Shown in pieces: positions 43,497 through 48,936 of a DNA stretch of 64,000 bases. The DNA is taken from the NCBI GenBank assembly GCA_025350465.1, contig JANXXU010000016.1, positions 1 to 64,000 on the forward strand, in the 5' to 3' direction. The position numbers and the translations under genes were made by a program. The notes below the pieces were generated by a model that had not been told where the DNA came from, searched no databases, and was given only the letters and a program-made list of their open reading frames with translations. How positions within the stretch are numbered: position 1 is the stretch's first letter; each line of letters begins with the position of its first letter. This DNA is from Alphaproteobacteria bacterium. GTDB lineage: Bacteria > Pseudomonadota > Alphaproteobacteria > Micropepsales > Micropepsaceae.

Positions 43497-43667
43497 ATGT
43501 GGGCGCGGCTCGGCTTGAGGCGAAGAATCTCCGTACACGGACGAATCGTCGATTGCCGCGGCGTGCTCGTCTTCGTGCCCCAGGAGCCCGCGACCTTCTG
43601 GCTGATGTACGACGTCTTTGCCGCCCTCGCGCTCATGGCCGGCGCCCTGCTGGGCTTCGCGACGTGA
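43497..43667 (+). CDS. Small membrane protein, 56 residues
   Basis: ATG 43497 begins MWARLGLRRRISVHGRIVDC, followed by a hydrophobic helix (FWLMYDVFAALALMAGALLG, about 34-53). The layout, basic N-terminus and one helix near the end, is seen in small phage or holin-like proteins, but support is only topological. No good ribosome site. Confidence 0.35.
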   Translation: MWARLGLRRRISVHGRIVDCRGVLVFVPQEPATFWLMYDVFAALALMAGALLGFAT

Positions 43668-43683
43668 GCGCAACCAAAAATCA

Positions 43684-43863
43684 CCCTCGCCCTTCCCGCC
43701 TTTTGGGAAGGGAGAGGGCAGGGGGTGAGGGATGGGCGCCGCGCCATGTCGCGCGCCACGGACCTACATCGGAGTCGGCGCCGATCGGTTTCGTCAGTGC
43801 ACCGCTTAACCGCCATCCCTCACCCCGATCCCCTCTCCCTTCCGGAAGGCGGAAGGGCGAGGG
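43684..43863. mobile_element. MITE-like element, copy 1 (180 bp)
   Basis: The left end CCCTCGCCCTTCCCGCC and the right end GGCGGAAGGGCGAGGG are inverted repeats that extend about 50 bp inward, each containing its own small hairpin and a GGGGGTGAGGGAT block. It codes for no protein. Copies 2-4 are at 43909, 46547 and 47071, all 180-181 bp. Confidence 0.7.
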
Positions 43864-43908
43864 GGCGAGCGAGGCGCGCCGGACGTTTGCGCGGTCGAAA
43901 ATCGATCA

Positions 43909-44088
43909 CCCTCGCCCTTCCCGCCTTTTGGGAAGGGAGAGGGCAGGGGGTGAGGGATGGGCGTTGCGTCACCTTGAACGACAAAGACTCTCAGCCGCGT
44001 CTGCACAAGTGCCTTTCGTCTTCACGCGGCTTAACCGCCATCCCTCACCCCGATCCCCTCTCCTTTCCGGAAGGCGGAAGGGCGAGGG
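43909..44088. mobile_element. MITE-like element, copy 2 (180 bp)
   Basis: Same ends and length as copy 1, starting 45 bp after it. The central 75 bp is diverged but keeps GGCTTAACCGCCATCCCTCA before the right arm. It lies 50 bp upstream of the RusA gene. Confidence 0.7.
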
Positions 44089-44139
44089 GGCGCGTTTTTC
44101 CTTCGCACGCTCGGGCGCGATTATTGGCGCGGTGCAGCC

Positions 44140-44595
44140 ATGAGCCGCGCGCACAACGCGCTGTCGCTCAGCATCGAGCGGCGCACGATCGCCGCGCGCG
44201 ACGCGCAGGGCGCGGTCGTTCTCACCAAACTGCCGATGCCGCCGCCGGCGAATAATTTGTTCCTGAACGCGCCGGGCAAGGGCCGCGTGCGTTCAGCGCG
44301 CTATCGCCAATGGGCGCAAAGCGCGGGCTGGCAGATTCGTGCGCAGCGTCCGGCGCGCCTGCGCGGGCCTGTCGAGATCACGCTGACCTTTGAAGAGGGC
44401 GCGACGCGCGCCGACATCGACAACCTCGCCAAAGCGCCGATCGATTTGCTGGTGGCGCTCGCGCTCATTGAATCCGACGACGCCTATGTCGTGCGCCAAG
44501 TGACGTTGCGCTGGGGCCAGGTTGCGGGCCTCGAGGTGCGCATCCAACCCGCGACCGCATCGCCGCGCGTGGTTCGAACGGGAGCCGCGCCATGA
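44140..44595 (+). CDS. RusA-family Holliday junction resolvase
   Basis: The 151-residue protein has the RusA pattern: PMPPPANNLFLN (33-43), SARYRQWAQSA (52-62), RADIDNLAKAPIDLLV with acidic residues Asp92 and Asp94 and Lys98, and LIESDDAYV with Asp113-Asp114. RusA enzymes cut four-way DNA junctions and are mostly phage-encoded. The next gene overlaps by 4 nt. All expected acidic residues are present. Confidence 0.82.
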   Translation: MSRAHNALSLSIERRTIAARDAQGAVVLTKLPMPPPANNLFLNAPGKGRVRSARYRQWAQSAGWQIRAQRPARLRGPVEITLTFEEGATRADIDNLAKAPIDLLVALALIESDDAYVVRQVTLRWGQVAGLEVRIQPATASPRVVRTGAAP

Positions 44596-45143
44596 AACGG
44601 GATCTGCCTTTCACCGCCGGCGAAATCGCCTTCGTCGTGAAGTGCGCGCGCCAAGGCCTCACCGGCAAGAACACAACGGTGTGCTTCAATGCGAAATTCG
44701 GCGCCGCGCGCGGCCATGGCGCGATCTTTCACGTCGCGCGCGAGAACGGCGCGCCCTTCGGCTATCGCCGAGCGCATGTCTCTGTGCCGCGCCGTGCGAG
44801 CCCGGGCGCACCCGAGGTGACCTCGGCGGAGCTGCGCCACGAGCGCCCGTTCCAATTTTCCTTTCAGCCGGCGCTGATGCCCGCGATCCGCGGCGGTCAG
44901 CTCGTCGACTTCGAGCGCCGCGCCGACGAGCCGGCGGCATTGGGCCCGCCCGGCGATTTCGCGCCCGGCTGCAAATGGATCCACGGCGAGCCGCGCGCCG
45001 ACGCCTGGCGGCAATGCGGCCACAAGCGCGCACCGGCGTCGGCCTATTGCGAATACCACCGCACGCGGACCGTCCGTATACGGACGGTTATATCTTCCCC
45101 CCTTGAGGGGGAAGATAAGCATCGCAACGCGGAGCGACGCTGA
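44592..45143 (+). CDS. GcrA-like regulator with repeat-derived tail
   Basis: The 183-residue protein has a basic N-terminal part (FTAGEIAFVVKCARQGLTGK) and a C-terminal Cys motif CKWIHGEPRADAWRQCGHKR and AYCEYH, like the end of GcrA (CxWPxGxP...FCG...YCxxH). GcrA binds sigma70 and methylated DNA to control cell-cycle genes; phage versions are known. The last 20 residues (VISSPLEGEDKHRNAERR) are encoded by an inserted 27-bp palindrome and its flank, so the natural end probably lay near residue 163. Confidence 0.65.
   Translation: MKRDLPFTAGEIAFVVKCARQGLTGKNTTVCFNAKFGAARGHGAIFHVARENGAPFGYRRAHVSVPRRASPGAPEVTSAELRHERPFQFSFQPALMPAIRGGQLVDFERRADEPAALGPPGDFAPGCKWIHGEPRADAWRQCGHKRAPASAYCEYHRTRTVRIRTVISSPLEGEDKHRNAERR
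45069..45117. repeat. Perfect 20-bp palindrome next to a 27-bp family palindrome
   Basis: ACCGTCCGTATACGGACGGT (45069-45088) is a perfect palindrome, followed at 45091-45117 by TATCTTCCCCCC-TTGA-GGGGGAAGATA. Both fall inside the 3' end of the GcrA-like gene. Confidence 0.7.
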
Positions 45144-45144
45144 G

Positions 45145-46098
45145 ATGGCGCGCATCCGCACGGTCAAGCCGGAATTCTTTCGCCACGAGCAGCTTTTCGA
45201 AGCGGAGAAAGCGTGCGGCCTGCCGTTGCGTCTCGCCTTCGCCGGATTGTGGACGGCGTGCGATCGCGAGGGCCGCTTCGTGTGGAAGCCGCGCGCCTTG
45301 AAGCTCGACGCGCTGCCTTACGACGACGTCGACTTCGCCGCTGTTCTCGATGCGCTCGCGGCGCACGGCTTCATCGTCAAATACGAGGCGGGTGGGTCGA
45401 CCTACGGCCACATCCCGAGCTGGTCGAAACATCAGCACGTCAATCAGCGCGAATCCCCATCCGTTATTCCGGCACCCGACGGCGCCGCACCGGACGACAC
45501 CGATGCACGCATGTGCACGCACCTGCCGGCGCCGGTGGTTTCACGTGGGGAAGGGAAAGGGAAAGGAAGGGAAGAGGAAAGGGAAATGGAAGGGAAGGGA
45601 GAGGAACGAGCGGCGCGCGATGCGCCGCCCCCCGGGTGCGAAGCCCGCGTCGCTCCCGAGCAAAAACCACACGCCACACGCTGGCCCAAGAACGCCGTCG
45701 TTGCCGAGCAATGGCTGAGGCTCGGCGAAGCGGCGCGCCAACGCCACGGCTTGGCGCCGCTCGATCTGCGTTTGGAAGCGGAAAAATTCGCCAACTACTG
45801 GGCCGCGCGCGAACGCGATGCCGTTCGCGCCGATTGGCAGAAGACGTGGATCAACTGGGTTTTGAAAGCGGAAACACATGGGCGAAGCGCGAGCATACAC
45901 GGCAAATCTTCCCATCCCTTCGGCGTCTTCGGCGCTCTCCTCGAGGCCGAGCGCGGTGGCGAACGCGGTCGTGCCTACGGTGGCGCGCGCAGTGGCGAAC
46001 TTGCGCGCGCGCCTGACGACAAAGCCGGCGCTGGCCGACATCTTGAAACTCCTGGCGAGGCTCAGCGCCATCTTCGGACCGCCGCGCGATCGCCCTGA
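45145..46098 (+). CDS. Phage-type replication initiator-like protein
   Basis: The 317-residue protein (ATG 45145) starts MARIRTVKPEFFRHEQLFEA, then LPLRLAFAGLWTACDREGRF and VLDALAAHGFIVKY, the winged-helix domain of phage replication proteins common in alphaproteobacteria. A Lys/Glu-rich linker leads to a C-terminal segment ending RADWQKTWINWVLKAE. The last 75 codons overlap the next gene in another frame and may be a run-on past the natural end. Probably recruits a helicase or binds an origin; inferred from the family. Confidence 0.7.
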   Translation: MARIRTVKPEFFRHEQLFEAEKACGLPLRLAFAGLWTACDREGRFVWKPRALKLDALPYDDVDFAAVLDALAAHGFIVKYEAGGSTYGHIPSWSKHQHVNQRESPSVIPAPDGAAPDDTDARMCTHLPAPVVSRGEGKGKGREEEREMEGKGEERAARDAPPPGCEARVAPEQKPHATRWPKNAVVAEQWLRLGEAARQRHGLAPLDLRLEAEKFANYWAARERDAVRADWQKTWINWVLKAETHGRSASIHGKSSHPFGVFGALLEAERGGERGRAYGGARSGELARAPDDKAGAGRHLETPGEAQRHLRTAARSP

Positions 46099-46531
46099 GC
46101 AATTGGCGCACGTGATGGCGAACGAGTGGCTTCAGGCGCTGGGCCACCTGCCGCTCGAAGCCTTGAACGGCGCGGCGTGTAAAGCGATCCGGCAACTGAA
46201 GTTCTGGCCGACGCCGTCCGAGATCATCGCGCTCGCCGGCGAACACATGAGCGACCTGCGCGGCGAACTCGAGCACGGCGAACTGATGGCGCGCGAACGC
46301 CCAAGCCTGCAGGTGACGCGCGGCGAGGGCGATGATTTCACCGCGCCGCCCGTCGCGCGCGGCGAGGCCGAATTCGCGAGCGTCGAAAAGCTCTGCGCCG
46401 CCTGGCGCAAACGCTTCGGCGAAAGCGCCGCCGCCTGCGATCGCATGGACGACTGGACCCCGGCGTCTCAAGACGGCGCCAGCGATGAGCTCAAACAAAG
46501 CCGCCTCGTCCGCGGCGTCCCCATCCCATGA
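45878..46531 (+). CDS. Phage-like protein of unknown function
   Basis: The 217-residue product has a low-complexity start (to about 40) and then a helical body with IFGPPRDRPEQLAHVMANEW, LEALNGAACKAIRQLKFWPT and PSEIIALAGEHM. The KFWPTPSEI segment is typical of small phage proteins next to replication initiators. The start overlaps the preceding gene by 221 nt in another frame, so an internal start is possible. The gene ends just before a MITE. Confidence 0.55.
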   Translation: MGEARAYTANLPIPSASSALSSRPSAVANAVVPTVARAVANLRARLTTKPALADILKLLARLSAIFGPPRDRPEQLAHVMANEWLQALGHLPLEALNGAACKAIRQLKFWPTPSEIIALAGEHMSDLRGELEHGELMARERPSLQVTRGEGDDFTAPPVARGEAEFASVEKLCAAWRKRFGESAAACDRMDDWTPASQDGASDELKQSRLVRGVPIP

Positions 46532-46546
46532 GCGAAACAAAAATCT

Positions 46547-46727
46547 CCCCTCGCCCTTCCGACCTCCGGAAGGGAGAGGGGCCGGGGGTGAGGGATAGGC
46601 GCGAGGCCATGTCGAACGCAGCCGATCTACACGCGCGTCGCCGCAACCCTCGCTTCCTCCGTACAAGGCACATCACCCATCCCTCACCCCCAACCCCTCT
46701 CCCTTCCGAAGGTGGAAGGGCGAGGGG
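46547..46727. mobile_element. MITE-like element, copy 3 (181 bp)
   Basis: Ends CCCCTCGCCCTTCC and GGAAGGGCGAGGGG are perfect 14-bp inverted repeats inside about 50-bp imperfect arms. The core is about 85-90% identical to copy 4 (e.g. GTCGAACGCAGCCGATCT in both). Located between two island genes. Confidence 0.75.
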
Positions 46728-46742
46728 AGCGGAGTCCGCGCC

Positions 46743-47051
46743 ATGACCGACCAGCCACCCGGCGACGTCGTCGCCGAGCTCGAGCGCCAAATCCGCGGCT
46801 GCTATCCCACCATCAACGCCCGCGCCGACCGCATCATGGCGCTGACCGGCGTGAGTGCGCAGGCGCGCTGGTTCTCGTGTCCCGATCCGTTCGGCCGCCC
46901 GCGCGTCAATGCGATCTTCATCGCGATCGGCCGCGACGTCTCGCTTCTGGAGACGGACATATCCAACAAGCGCGTCGCCGCTTCGATCACGACGCAAGCC
47001 GCCAACGCGATCGCCCTCGTTAAAAACTTGAACCGAACAACGGAGCATTAG
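46743..47051 (+). CDS. Small island protein of unknown function
   Basis: The 102-residue product begins MTDQPPGDVVAELERQIRGC and has a mixed alpha/beta pattern (ARWFSCPDPFGRPRVNAIFI). ATG 46743 lies 16 bp after MITE copy 3, so the MITE supplies its leader. Not recognised. Confidence 0.5.
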   Translation: MTDQPPGDVVAELERQIRGCYPTINARADRIMALTGVSAQARWFSCPDPFGRPRVNAIFIAIGRDVSLLETDISNKRVAASITTQAANAIALVKNLNRTTEH

Positions 47052-47070
47052 ATGAGCGCAAGCATCGTCA

Positions 47071-47251
47071 CCCCTCGCCCTTCCGACCTCCGGAAGGGAG
47101 AGGGGCCGGGGGTGAGGGATAGGCGTGAAGCAACGTCGAACGCAGCCGATCTGCACGTGCGTCGCCGCAACCCTCGATTCCTCCGTGCACGGCACATCGC
47201 CCATCCCTCACCCCCAACCCCTCTCCCTTCCGAAGATGGAAGGGCGAGGGG
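47071..47251. mobile_element. MITE-like element, copy 4 (181 bp)
   Basis: Identical ends to copy 3. It lies 16 bp before the DUF6362 ATG, the same spacing as copy 3 to its gene, which suggests either target preference for ribosome-site regions or co-duplication. Confidence 0.75.
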
Positions 47252-47266
47252 AGTGGAGCGCGCCCC

Positions 47267-47743
47267 ATGACCGACACCTGGACGCGCGAGCTCGTCTGGT
47301 CGCGCTATCTCGGCGCCTTCTCGACGCTGATCCGTCTGCCGAACGAAGGCCGCGCGCGCGCCGCCGCGTCGGGCTGGCCGACGATCATCCGCGACTTCGC
47401 CGACGCCATCGCGGCGGAGGAAACGCGCGCGGAGGAAGCCTATCCCTTCCCCAAAGGCTGGGACCGCCCCGCGCCCCCCTCGCACCGCGCGATCGACCTG
47501 ATGGAAGAGGTGTGGAATTGGCACGTTCGCCATCTGATGGCGCATCCAACCGAGGCGCGCATGCTGATCGTCATGGCCTGGTGCCGCGCCCGTCACCGCC
47601 CGCTGACGGCATTGTTCCGCTCGATGCGCATAAGCCGCCGCGACGCCTACCGCACCAGAGACCGCGCCCTCGACCTGGTGCGCGCCGCCCTAACGCGCGA
47701 CCGCGTGCCGGTGAACGAATTCATCGAGGTGTTGGTGGCTTAG
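47267..47743 (+). CDS. DUF6362-type phage protein
   Basis: The 158-residue protein has LVWSRYLGAFSTLIRLPNEG, then WPTIIRDFADAIAAEETR and an end with an HTH-like segment: MRISRRDAYRTRDRALDLVR. This resembles DUF6362 proteins of alphaproteobacterial phages. A decayed copy of its C-terminal region lies at 48955-49110, beyond the mobile mystery module. Confidence 0.65.
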   Translation: MTDTWTRELVWSRYLGAFSTLIRLPNEGRARAAASGWPTIIRDFADAIAAEETRAEEAYPFPKGWDRPAPPSHRAIDLMEEVWNWHVRHLMAHPTEARMLIVMAWCRARHRPLTALFRSMRISRRDAYRTRDRALDLVRAALTRDRVPVNEFIEVLVA

Positions 47744-47807: not shown

Positions 47808-48392
47808 CTAGGATCGCGCAAACGCGATCAGCGGCTGAAGATCGTGGTTGTCCGCTTCATGCAGCGCATCGATATACGCGCGGCGCGGCCCGCCGGCGGT
47901 TTGAAGATTGCCGCGCCCCCACGTGAAGCGTGCGCCGTCCTCGGCGACGATCAATAGGTCCGCCGCCATCCGCGACAATCGGCCGTTGCCGTTCGGGAAC
48001 GGATGAATGGTCACAAGGCGGTGGTGAAAACGAACGGCCAATTCGTCGGGAGCGTATGTGGCATGTTCGAGCCAATAGGTTGCGTCGTCGAGCAGCGCCT
48101 TCACGTCGGGCTGGATGCGATGGCTTGGAACGCCGAGATTGCGCTCAGAGGTTCGGTACGTGCCTGCCCATTTCCACACCTGGCCGAACATGCGCCGGTG
48201 AAGACCGCGCAAGAAGCGCTCGTTGAGCACATTGCGCTTTCGACCGAGCGCCCACAGCGCCGCATCGAGAATGTTCTGCTGTTCGAGTTCGTTGAGTTCG
48301 CGCCGCAGCGTCACGTGTGTCGGTATCAAGCCGTCGCGCTCGGCCGGCGTGAGCGGTGTCGCGTCGTCGTCGGCTTCGAAGGGCCGGCTCAT
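47808..48392 (-). CDS. Mobile mystery protein B (Fic domain)
   Basis: The 194-residue protein has the Fic active site HPFPNGNGR at 130-138 and the family parts ELNELEQQNILDAALWALGR, FLRGLHRRMFGQVWKWAGTY. Fic enzymes transfer AMP or related groups to proteins; in this pair the B protein behaves like a toxin-type partner in an accessory gene module. The motif is intact. The start overlaps the A gene by 4 nt. Confidence 0.9.
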   Translation of the reverse strand: MSRPFEADDDATPLTPAERDGLIPTHVTLRRELNELEQQNILDAALWALGRKRNVLNERFLRGLHRRMFGQVWKWAGTYRTSERNLGVPSHRIQPDVKALLDDATYWLEHATYAPDELAVRFHHRLVTIHPFPNGNGRLSRMAADLLIVAEDGARFTWGRGNLQTAGGPRRAYIDALHEADNHDLQPLIAFARS

Positions 48393-48841
48393 TCTTCACG
48401 CCACAGCCGCGCGGGACGTTGCAATAGCTGCTCGATCAGACGGTCGCGCTGGTCGTTGCGCACGCCGGCGTCACGCACGGCTTGATCTTCAAGGCGCATC
48501 GACTGATCGACGGAGGCAAGCTGGCGATCGGCGGTAAGTGCGGCTTGCGCGTGTACGATATCGGCGAGCCGATGCTCGGGCACGATCGCGTAGACGACGC
48601 GGCAGCCCATCGCTTGCGCCGCGCGCTCGAGCGACTTGAGCGTGATGCCGCCGGCGACCTCTGCGCGTTCGAGTTCGGGGATGCGCGACTGCGAGACGCC
48701 CATGCGCTGCGCCAGCTGTTGCGTCGTCATGCCGAGCGCGTTGCGCAGGGCGCGCACCCAGCCTTTCGGCGGACGCGGGCTTGCGAGCAGCGGACGGAGC
48801 GCGGCAAAACGTTGGTCGAGATGGTGGATGGCGCTGTTCAT
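48389..48841 (-). CDS. Mobile mystery protein A (HTH)
   Basis: The 150-residue protein (ATG 48841) has RPPKGWVRALRNALGMTTQQ, an HTH (TTQQLAQRMGVSQSRIPELE) and TLKSLERAAQAMGCRVVYAI, all matching the A member of the pair. It likely represses the operon and counters the Fic protein. The operator-like repeats at 48844-48936 overlap its promoter region. Confidence 0.9.
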   Translation of the reverse strand: MNSAIHHLDQRFAALRPLLASPRPPKGWVRALRNALGMTTQQLAQRMGVSQSRIPELERAEVAGGITLKSLERAAQAMGCRVVYAIVPEHRLADIVHAQAALTADRQLASVDQSMRLEDQAVRDAGVRNDQRDRLIEQLLQRPARLWREE

Positions 48842-48843
48842 AA

Positions 48844-48936
48844 CAATCATATATATCTGACAATCATATACTATTTCAATAAGAAGTATCTTACTAAAAT
48901 TGAAAGAATAAATCAGATATATATGATATATGATTG
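48844..48936 (-). promoter_or_regulatory. AT-rich operator array of the mobile mystery operon
   Basis: A perfect 15-bp inverted repeat, ATCATATATATCTGA at 48846-48860 and its complement at 48913-48927, encloses an AT-rich core. CAATCATATA occurs at 48844-48853 and 48861-48870 and inverted as TATATGATTG at 48927-48936. This 93-bp block is about 23% GC inside DNA above 60% GC. Repressor binding by protein A is inferred. Confidence 0.65.

Follow-up and report, generated by a model that had tools for sequence, protein, structure and literature searches.

REP/REPIN-RAYT systems (repetitive extragenic palindromic sequences and their REPIN pairs, with a REP-associated tyrosine transposase) and TIRtrons are characterized, as far as the available part of PMC3733652 describes them, by inverted pairs of palindromic repeats that occur as many gene-less copies and as a few gene-bearing copies with the same ends. 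The same organization is seen in a family of hairpin-ended repeats of which four copies, each of about 180 bp, lie in the first 64,000 nucleotides of contig JANXXU010000016.1 (assembly GCA_025350465.1; the whole stretch is referred to as the window) from an Alphaproteobacteria bacterium of the order Micropepsales. The gene found between such arms here is for a DUF559 protein, a putative PD-(D/E)XK-type nuclease, whereas the enzyme of REP/REPIN-RAYT systems and TIRtrons is an HUH tyrosine transposase; the arms differ as well, those at DUF559 genes carrying a CTCNCCC-type hairpin, often with a G-rich tail, and the Y1 transposase genes of the order having other ends. Prokaryotic miniature inverted-repeat transposable elements (MITEs) share with these repeats their length, inverted ends, lack of recognised coding capacity, multiple copies and empty sites in relatives, but the gene-bearing relative here has an endonuclease gene in place of one for a DDE transposase, and no target-site duplication was found. 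EDxHD/Vsr-like homing endonucleases share the nuclease family, the conserved acidic and histidine residues and a match to PDB entry 3r3p, whereas the DUF559 gene is enclosed by its own hairpin arms and has gene-less derivatives; DUF559 loci showed no sign of an intron or intein, for which they were not systematically searched. The fit is partial for each of the three frames (REP/RAYT, MITE and homing endonuclease) and complete for none, and the DUF559 unit is apparently a very small, undescribed kind of mobile element.

Other reports touch on one or the other component. CGTC REPs, mostly from Alphaproteobacteria, are likewise palindromic repeats reported without a dedicated transposase, whereas their stems are of 8-9 bp and nearly always start with AT residues, a comparison made by description only (PMC3733652, available part). 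VsrA of Caulobacter, of the same superfamily as the element DUF559 protein, is noted to have a DUF559 domain and is treated as a putative mismatch-repair protein in the accessible text of PMC12907096, the main text of which does not contain ‘palindrom’. According to the available part of PMC12308824, a recombination hotspot of Legionella pneumophila is a repeated segment that carries DUF559 together with a transposase. A link between DUF559 and palindromic arms is absent from the accessible portions of PMC12907096, PMC12308824, PMC12350094, PMC10969869 and PMC3733652, and DUF559 genes between palindromic arms were not described in the open-access literature searched, a corpus outside of which lie most subscription journals and bioRxiv.

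In the genome of the window (G000; 4.06 Mb in 52 contigs), BLAST matches of the window element define 39 family places, from which diverged copies may have escaped: 35 are two-armed (28 of them at 169-186 bp) and four are fragments or single arms. Each two-armed copy consists of two palindromic units in inverted orientation. In the window copies, an outer hairpin CCCTCGCCCTTCC...GGAAGGGAGAGGG is followed by a tail GGGGTGAGGGATGG, an interior of about 85 bp and then the inverted equivalent, in agreement with the inverted arms of about 50 bp that a preliminary description of the locus had reported. The arm core ATCCCTCACCC occurs eight times in the window at no more than one mismatch (100 shuffles: mean 0.71, maximum 4), and the four arms folded singly as DNA (both of copy 1 and both of copy 3, out of eight) give hairpins with one internal mismatch. 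Among 29 copies of 160-200 bp, the mean pairwise identity is 0.87/0.89 in the arms, 0.54/0.53 at the interior ends and 0.41 in the middle. The ends mostly read CT|CCC...GGG|NG, position -2 being C in 23 of the 29, position -1 T in 19 and position +2 G in 22, and no target-site duplication is apparent by eye at the copies in G000. The consensus carries GTGAGGG, and the GTAG tetranucleotide of REPIN/RAYT repeats is not present. Within the genus, four of ten other genomes contain 1-4 matches to one element at E <= 1e-8, and G000 itself gives 65. A search of Rfam returned nothing at gathering score; its 26 weak matches, mostly to microRNA models, are chance matches to hairpins and were discarded.

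The occupancy of these places differs between relatives. We searched the genus with the joined flanks of 16 elements, and compared flank matches lying no more than 2.5 kb apart. For eight of the 16, a relative has both flanks on one contig within that distance, giving 26 comparisons, of which 18 are without element-sized extra DNA; these concern the elements of C1, C29, C31, C44 and C48 and one each of C3 and C25. A single alignment runs across the junction in six of the 18 (C25 in G088; C31 in G085, G088 and G089; C44 in G085 and G094), whereas the other 12 demonstrate absence but no clean junction because the relative's intergenic stretch is shorter than the G000 flanks alone. The remaining eight comparisons have 174 and 184 extra bp in two cases and 304-1669 in six (the C27 element in five of these, C3 in the sixth). 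Between-species identity is too low for the exact ends to be placed from the empty sites. Near-constant length, shared ends, multiple copies genome-wide and orthologous sites without the element agree with the MITE-like nature proposed in the preliminary description, which had called for a genome-wide count and a search for empty sites; both further copies and variation in insertion are present. At the site of the C44 element, G088 has an inverted hairpin element of another family, CATCCTCCACCGCTTTAGCGG...CCGCTAAAGCGGTGGAGGATG (L257, about 1283-1523; G088:C16 near 83440-83680).

Only one family member has a recognised gene between its arms. It lies at C49:19514-20036 and spans 523 bp, with a gene for a 129-aa DUF559 protein (PF04480; Pfam E 4.3e-32). 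We infer that this copy is the family's autonomous element; its flanks were among the 16 searched, and no relative in the genus has both. A second family in G000, of the CTTTCCTCCCCCG type, repeats the pattern: its 55 arm matches form 19 +/- pairs, of which 18 have lengths of 103-214 bp and the remaining one, at 529 bp, holds the DUF559 gene of C34. Fourteen arms of this family, the DUF559-bearing pair included, are clustered within 21 kb (C34:1520-22380). The search for a transposase with matching ends, as also suggested in the preliminary description, thereby yielded a partner, the DUF559 endonuclease gene, and no classical transposase, DDE genes with these ends having been outside that search. 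Arms at DUF559 genes were scored as the best local inverted match of the 400 bp to the left of the DUF559 domain with the 400 bp to its right, with a threshold of at least 18; three of the six DUF559 genes in G000 have inverted arms, with scores of 28-34.

By profile comparison, DUF559 is a relative of Vsr and of a mobile-intron endonuclease, presumably with a PD-(D/E)XK fold of the Vsr/EDxHD-like type. The profile matches PDB 3hrl (endonuclease-like) at E 2.7e-37 and 3r3p (mobile intron protein), which we take to be I-Bth0305I, at E 1.8e-5. The match to Vsr, at E 3.6e-5, is below the Vsr curated cut-off, that to PvuRts1I in the PDB is weak (E 0.018), and PADLOC returns weak Vsr and DpdF matches only. 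E16, D45, E56, D58, H62, D69, R72 and R85 are among the invariant residues in an alignment (A1) of DUF559 domains. Matches to cholera toxin B chains (E 0.04-0.08) were dropped as chance.

The sampled DUF559 genes are broadly and specifically associated with hairpin arms. Loci from the order and from the phylum were the best-scoring search returns together with 40 further loci picked from the order list; L089, L106, L112, L115, L177 and L205 and the ParE loci L147, L149, L163 and L168 were dropped because of contig ends. In the order, 24/32 and 31/38 DUF559 loci (55/70) reach the threshold, against 0/64 and 1/76 shifted windows, and in the phylum-wide sample 15/30 do so, against 1/60, which brings the shifted-window controls of the two samples to 2/200. 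None of 26 ParE genes of the same order (nor of their 52 shifted windows) scores 18. A further 80 named loci were gathered with ten closer DUF559 domains, as the 18-domain alignment was too diverse for the collection scan. Seven of these (L283, L305, L308, L318, L332, L335 and L337) were dropped for short flanks, leaving 73 testable, of which 58 reach 18; without L301, where an N run scored as a match, the count is 57/72 against 0/275 shifted windows. Above the threshold are loci of Caulobacter, Rhodopseudomonas, Sphingomonas, Mesorhizobium, Xanthomonas, Variovorax and Legionella, and metagenome-assembled genomes labelled, as deposited, Rickettsiales, Planctomycetota, Gastranaerophilales, Dehalococcoidia, Aminicenantes and others. 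Left and right arms taken from different DUF559 loci reach 18 in 9.7%, 9.0% and 14.6% of pairings (ParE: 2.3%), because unrelated loci share arm types. As the samples were chosen by score or motif, these rates are not estimates for all DUF559 genes. In the 500 bp to either side, a C[CT]CNCCC/GGGNG[AG]G hairpin is present on both sides of 32 and one side of 12 of the 70 order loci, on both sides of 15 and one side of 11 of the 30 phylum loci, and on both sides of 43 and one side of 11 of the 61 named loci with full flanks; all 26 ParE genes have it on neither side. In Legionella anisa (L336), the DUF559 gene lies inside a much longer inverted repeat (score 125) that extends, on either side, to about 180 bp from the domain.

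Arms and gene make up one unit, and in pairs with unrelated flanks the homology between units stops near the outer arm ends. For the analyses of unit ends and stems, the named set was limited to loci longer than 4200 bp and free of N runs; the unit-end test covered 160 loci from all sets, 117 of them with arms. DNA homology over at least 85% of both units is found in 37 pairs, 14 of which have no flank similarity by the rule applied; of the 56 homology ends in these 14 pairs, 46 are no more than 5 bp from the arm ends and all are within 16. L103 (from G016, which belongs to the family of G000) and L299 (Rhizomicrobium electricum), identical over 1703 bp, are one locus counted twice, so that the 14 pairs are 13 distinct ones. 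The unit length in the order set has a median of 496 bp (interquartile range 463-546, range 431-883), which leaves little room for a second protein. The gene-bearing form is of about 0.4-0.6 kb: one DUF559 gene is enclosed by two inverted arms, and each arm has a hairpin, in many cases with a G-rich tail of the GGGTGAGGG type. An internal perfect stem of at least 7 bp is present in 53/55, 14/15 and 40/47 arm-positive loci of the order, phylum and named sets, and in 2, 0 and 1, respectively, when the arms are shuffled. The GGGTG(A/G)GGG tail reads toward the gene in 24/55, 6/15 and 19/47 of these loci and points away in 1, 0 and 8, and is therefore frequent, not universal, and at times on the outside. 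Eleven of 15 genomes contain 5-65 copies each of the exact hairpin CCCTCTCCC(2-10)GGGAGAGGG, and its reversed control is at 0 in all 15.

The stems have a hot spot of mismatch at the fourth position of CTCNCCC/GGGNGAG. Among stems at DUF559 loci, with overlapping counts possible, 252 are fully paired, and the 20 commonest one-mismatch classes hold 95 with the mismatch at the fourth position and 37 with it elsewhere; in the G000 family, G.A stands at this position in 44 of 69 scanned arms, where an arm may count more than once. T:G mismatches are the sites at which Vsr nicks. The idea that a nuclease which senses mismatches might act on hairpins that permanently contain one is attractive, and a freely varying position would look similar. 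Arms and proteins also vary together: across 53 order loci, arm and protein similarity correlate with r = 0.48 (Mantel test), and with r = 0.46 when pairs from the same genome or with similar outer flanks are removed (1346/1378 pairs kept), with 0/2000 permutations as high. L197 (G093:C48) was left out of this test because it has no upstream arm.

The reading that we favour, with a probability of roughly 0.6, is that the window repeats are non-autonomous members of a hairpin-ended DUF559 element family and are copied via DUF559 cutting and repair. DUF559 would then be the mover of the elements: it would recognise its own type of arm and would nick or cut at the arms, perhaps as extruded, mismatch-bearing hairpins, or at a target. 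Repair, as in homing, would copy the unit and its gene-less relatives and leave no consistent target-site duplication. Such repair, acting on the arms, is also what we propose to keep the arms alike while interiors diverge. A wider claim is put forward more tentatively, and we hold it to be somewhat less probable than its negation, namely that DUF559 units are widespread autonomous elements of about 0.4-0.6 kb, spread by nuclease-induced repair, that account for a large share of bacterial CCCTCTCCC/GGGAGAGGG palindromes; such an element would have one Vsr-like nuclease gene, hairpin-tipped ends with a recurrent stem mismatch and no classical transposase.

Several observations weigh against this reading. 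Below the arm threshold are 15/70 order, 15/30 phylum and 15/72 named loci, and the motif hairpin is on neither side in 26/70, 4/30 and 7/61 DUF559 loci, some of which have arms with other stems. In G000 itself, the other three of the six DUF559 genes score 12-14, which is the control level, and have arm-like hairpins by eye only. The interior of the gene-less element is not recognisable, by eye, as a remnant of the C49 element. At L197, a complete element of the same family, of about 211 bp, lies about 53 bp after the DUF559 domain with no upstream arm (element and domain together at about 1501-2081), and none of the other 17 sequences in alignment A1 is closer to P0001 than that of this locus. 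The 23 unit pairs with flank similarity are no evidence for movement, because similarity is present in their flanks too. No consistent target-site duplication is found, exact direct repeats of k>=3 being present in at most 1/117 units, at chance level; flanking repeats within +-4 bp were observed 15 times against 7.6 expected for k=5, 4 against 1.8 for k=6 and 3 against 0.4 for k=7. The exact hairpin CCCTCTCCC(2-10)GGGAGAGGG is at 0 in four of the 15 genomes (G000, whose arms differ, and the genomes that carry the Rhizomicrobium, Mesorhizobium and L. anisa loci), and all 15 had been chosen as DUF559 carriers. Finally, the covariation of protein and arm is also expected if the DUF559 gene were only linked cargo, since joint inheritance alone would yield such a correlation.

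This last point leads to the most serious alternative, in which DUF559 is cargo or an accessory and the real mobile unit is moved in trans by another enzyme, a Y1/RAYT protein or other. Y1 genes are present in 32/96 order genomes, and the available part of PMC3733652 reports inverted repeats bearing a GGGGWSAS motif around Y1 transposase genes, a motif that GGGGTGAG would fit by eye. The Y1 genes of the order, taken as a positive control, do have arms (13/30 reach a score of 18), with other end sequences, as expected for TIRtrons: their best inverted ends are GGGGTCAGAGTA, GGGGACACTATACTTA, GCGGGCGTCCCGCCCGC and others, and the CTCNCCC-type hairpin is on both sides of none, on one side of one and on neither side of 29 of the 30. 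At L246-L249, Y1 transposase genes lie between long inverted repeats, with GCGGGCGTCCCGCCCGC-type arms at L246, L247 and L249. The sole Y1 gene of G000 (L044) is without the arms of the present family, and Y1 was rejected as the partner. DUF559 is present in 73/96 order genomes (and in 68/200 of a phylum-wide draw), more than twice the number with Y1, and it alone is recognised as a gene between the arms of two G000 families. We consider cargo status unlikely, at less than half the weight given to movement by DUF559 itself.

Less probable again is that a DUF559 gene invaded, in the manner of a homing endonuclease, the spacer of older gene-less arm pairs that had arisen separately. The relationship of DUF559 to a mobile intron protein would suit such an origin, as would the great excess of gene-less over gene-bearing pairs in G000, but no remnant of a gene-less interior was recognised on either side of the C49 gene, and gene and arms are homologous as one block. 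That the repeats are ordinary MITEs from a lost DDE insertion sequence, with a coincidental link to DUF559, is very improbable: the repeats have the size, inverted ends and intergenic position that MITEs typically show, but no target-site duplication is seen at the copies, and the association recurs at most sampled DUF559 loci in many phyla against the near-empty shifted controls (0/275 and 2/200). The prediction of a stable RNA structure in the preliminary description was borne out, copy 3, the only one folded whole, reaching -121.3 kcal/mol where its shuffles average -71.5 (z = -10), and the arms may have a secondary regulatory effect. That the arms are nothing else than selected RNA hairpins (terminators or leaders) which flank small genes by chance and do not move is scarcely credible in spite of this fold and of arms conserved at 87-89% around a mid-interior at 41%, given 0/26 ParE genes of the same order with such flanks, homology of whole units that stops near the arm ends, and sites without the element in relatives.

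The four window copies, listed in Table 1, fall into two pairs. BLAST gives 184, 184, 180 and 180 bp, against the 180-181 bp first reported, and, as had been stated, no gene is recognised in them, the longest start-initiated open stretch being of 46-55 aa. Copies 1 and 2 are indeed adjacent, at about 41 bp by their BLAST limits and not 45 bp; their arms are 100% and 98% identical and their mid-interiors 50%. The middle of this pair (43684-44092) is half-diverged at equal length, as if the arms had been homogenised separately. Copies 3 and 4 are alike throughout, with a mid-interior identity of 92%, and match at 13/20 and 16/20 positions in the 20 nt just beyond each end. In both, 15 bases separate the end of the element from the A of an ATG (46743 and 47267), close to the spacing of 16 that had been taken as a sign that the elements may supply leaders or ribosome-site context. 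This equal spacing is probably a single arrangement and not two independent events, because a 224-nt repeat (90%) includes the ATG; with both copies inside this one repeated arrangement and nothing else pointing to translation, the proposed leader role is unsupported. RusA, DUF6362 and a protein resembling S24 repressors support the phage-like setting. Two short palindromes, TCCGTACACGGACG and GACCGTCCGTATACGGACGG (43530-43543 and 45068-45087), resemble CGTCCGTACACGG, a motif that many elements have towards the right end of the interior. A Fic/DOC gene (47808-48850, minus strand) with an upstream helix-turn-helix (Xre-like) gene is possibly a toxin-antitoxin-like pair at the island's edge.

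Table 1. Element copies, repeat units and adjoining gene in the window (positions count from its first nucleotide).
Feature	Positions	Strand	Details
Copy 1, two-armed element	43684..43867	+	left arm 43684-43735, right arm 43813-43863; BLAST length 184 bp
Copy 2, two-armed element	43909..44092	+	left arm 43909-43960, right arm 44038-44088; BLAST length 184 bp
RusA-like Holliday junction endonuclease gene adjoining copy 2	44140..44595	+	PF05866, E 1.6e-8; phage-like island context
224-nt repeat unit 1	46528..46751	+	copy 3 and flanks, to the next gene's ATG
Copy 3, two-armed element	46548..46727	+	left arm 46548-46596, right arm 46679-46727; BLAST length 180 bp
224-nt repeat unit 2	47052..47275	+	copy 4, flanks and ATG; 90% identical to unit 1
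Copy 4, two-armed element	47072..47251	+	left arm 47072-47120, right arm 47203-47251; BLAST length 180 bp

The function of DUF559, a protein family common in bacteria, is unknown, and so far the origin of the G+C-rich palindromic repeats that are common in bacterial DNA is unclear. If it is true that DUF559 moves these elements, one testable answer would be at hand to both the function of the family and the origin of palindromic repeats, and a case would be established of a mobile element outside introns that is driven by a Vsr-like nuclease.

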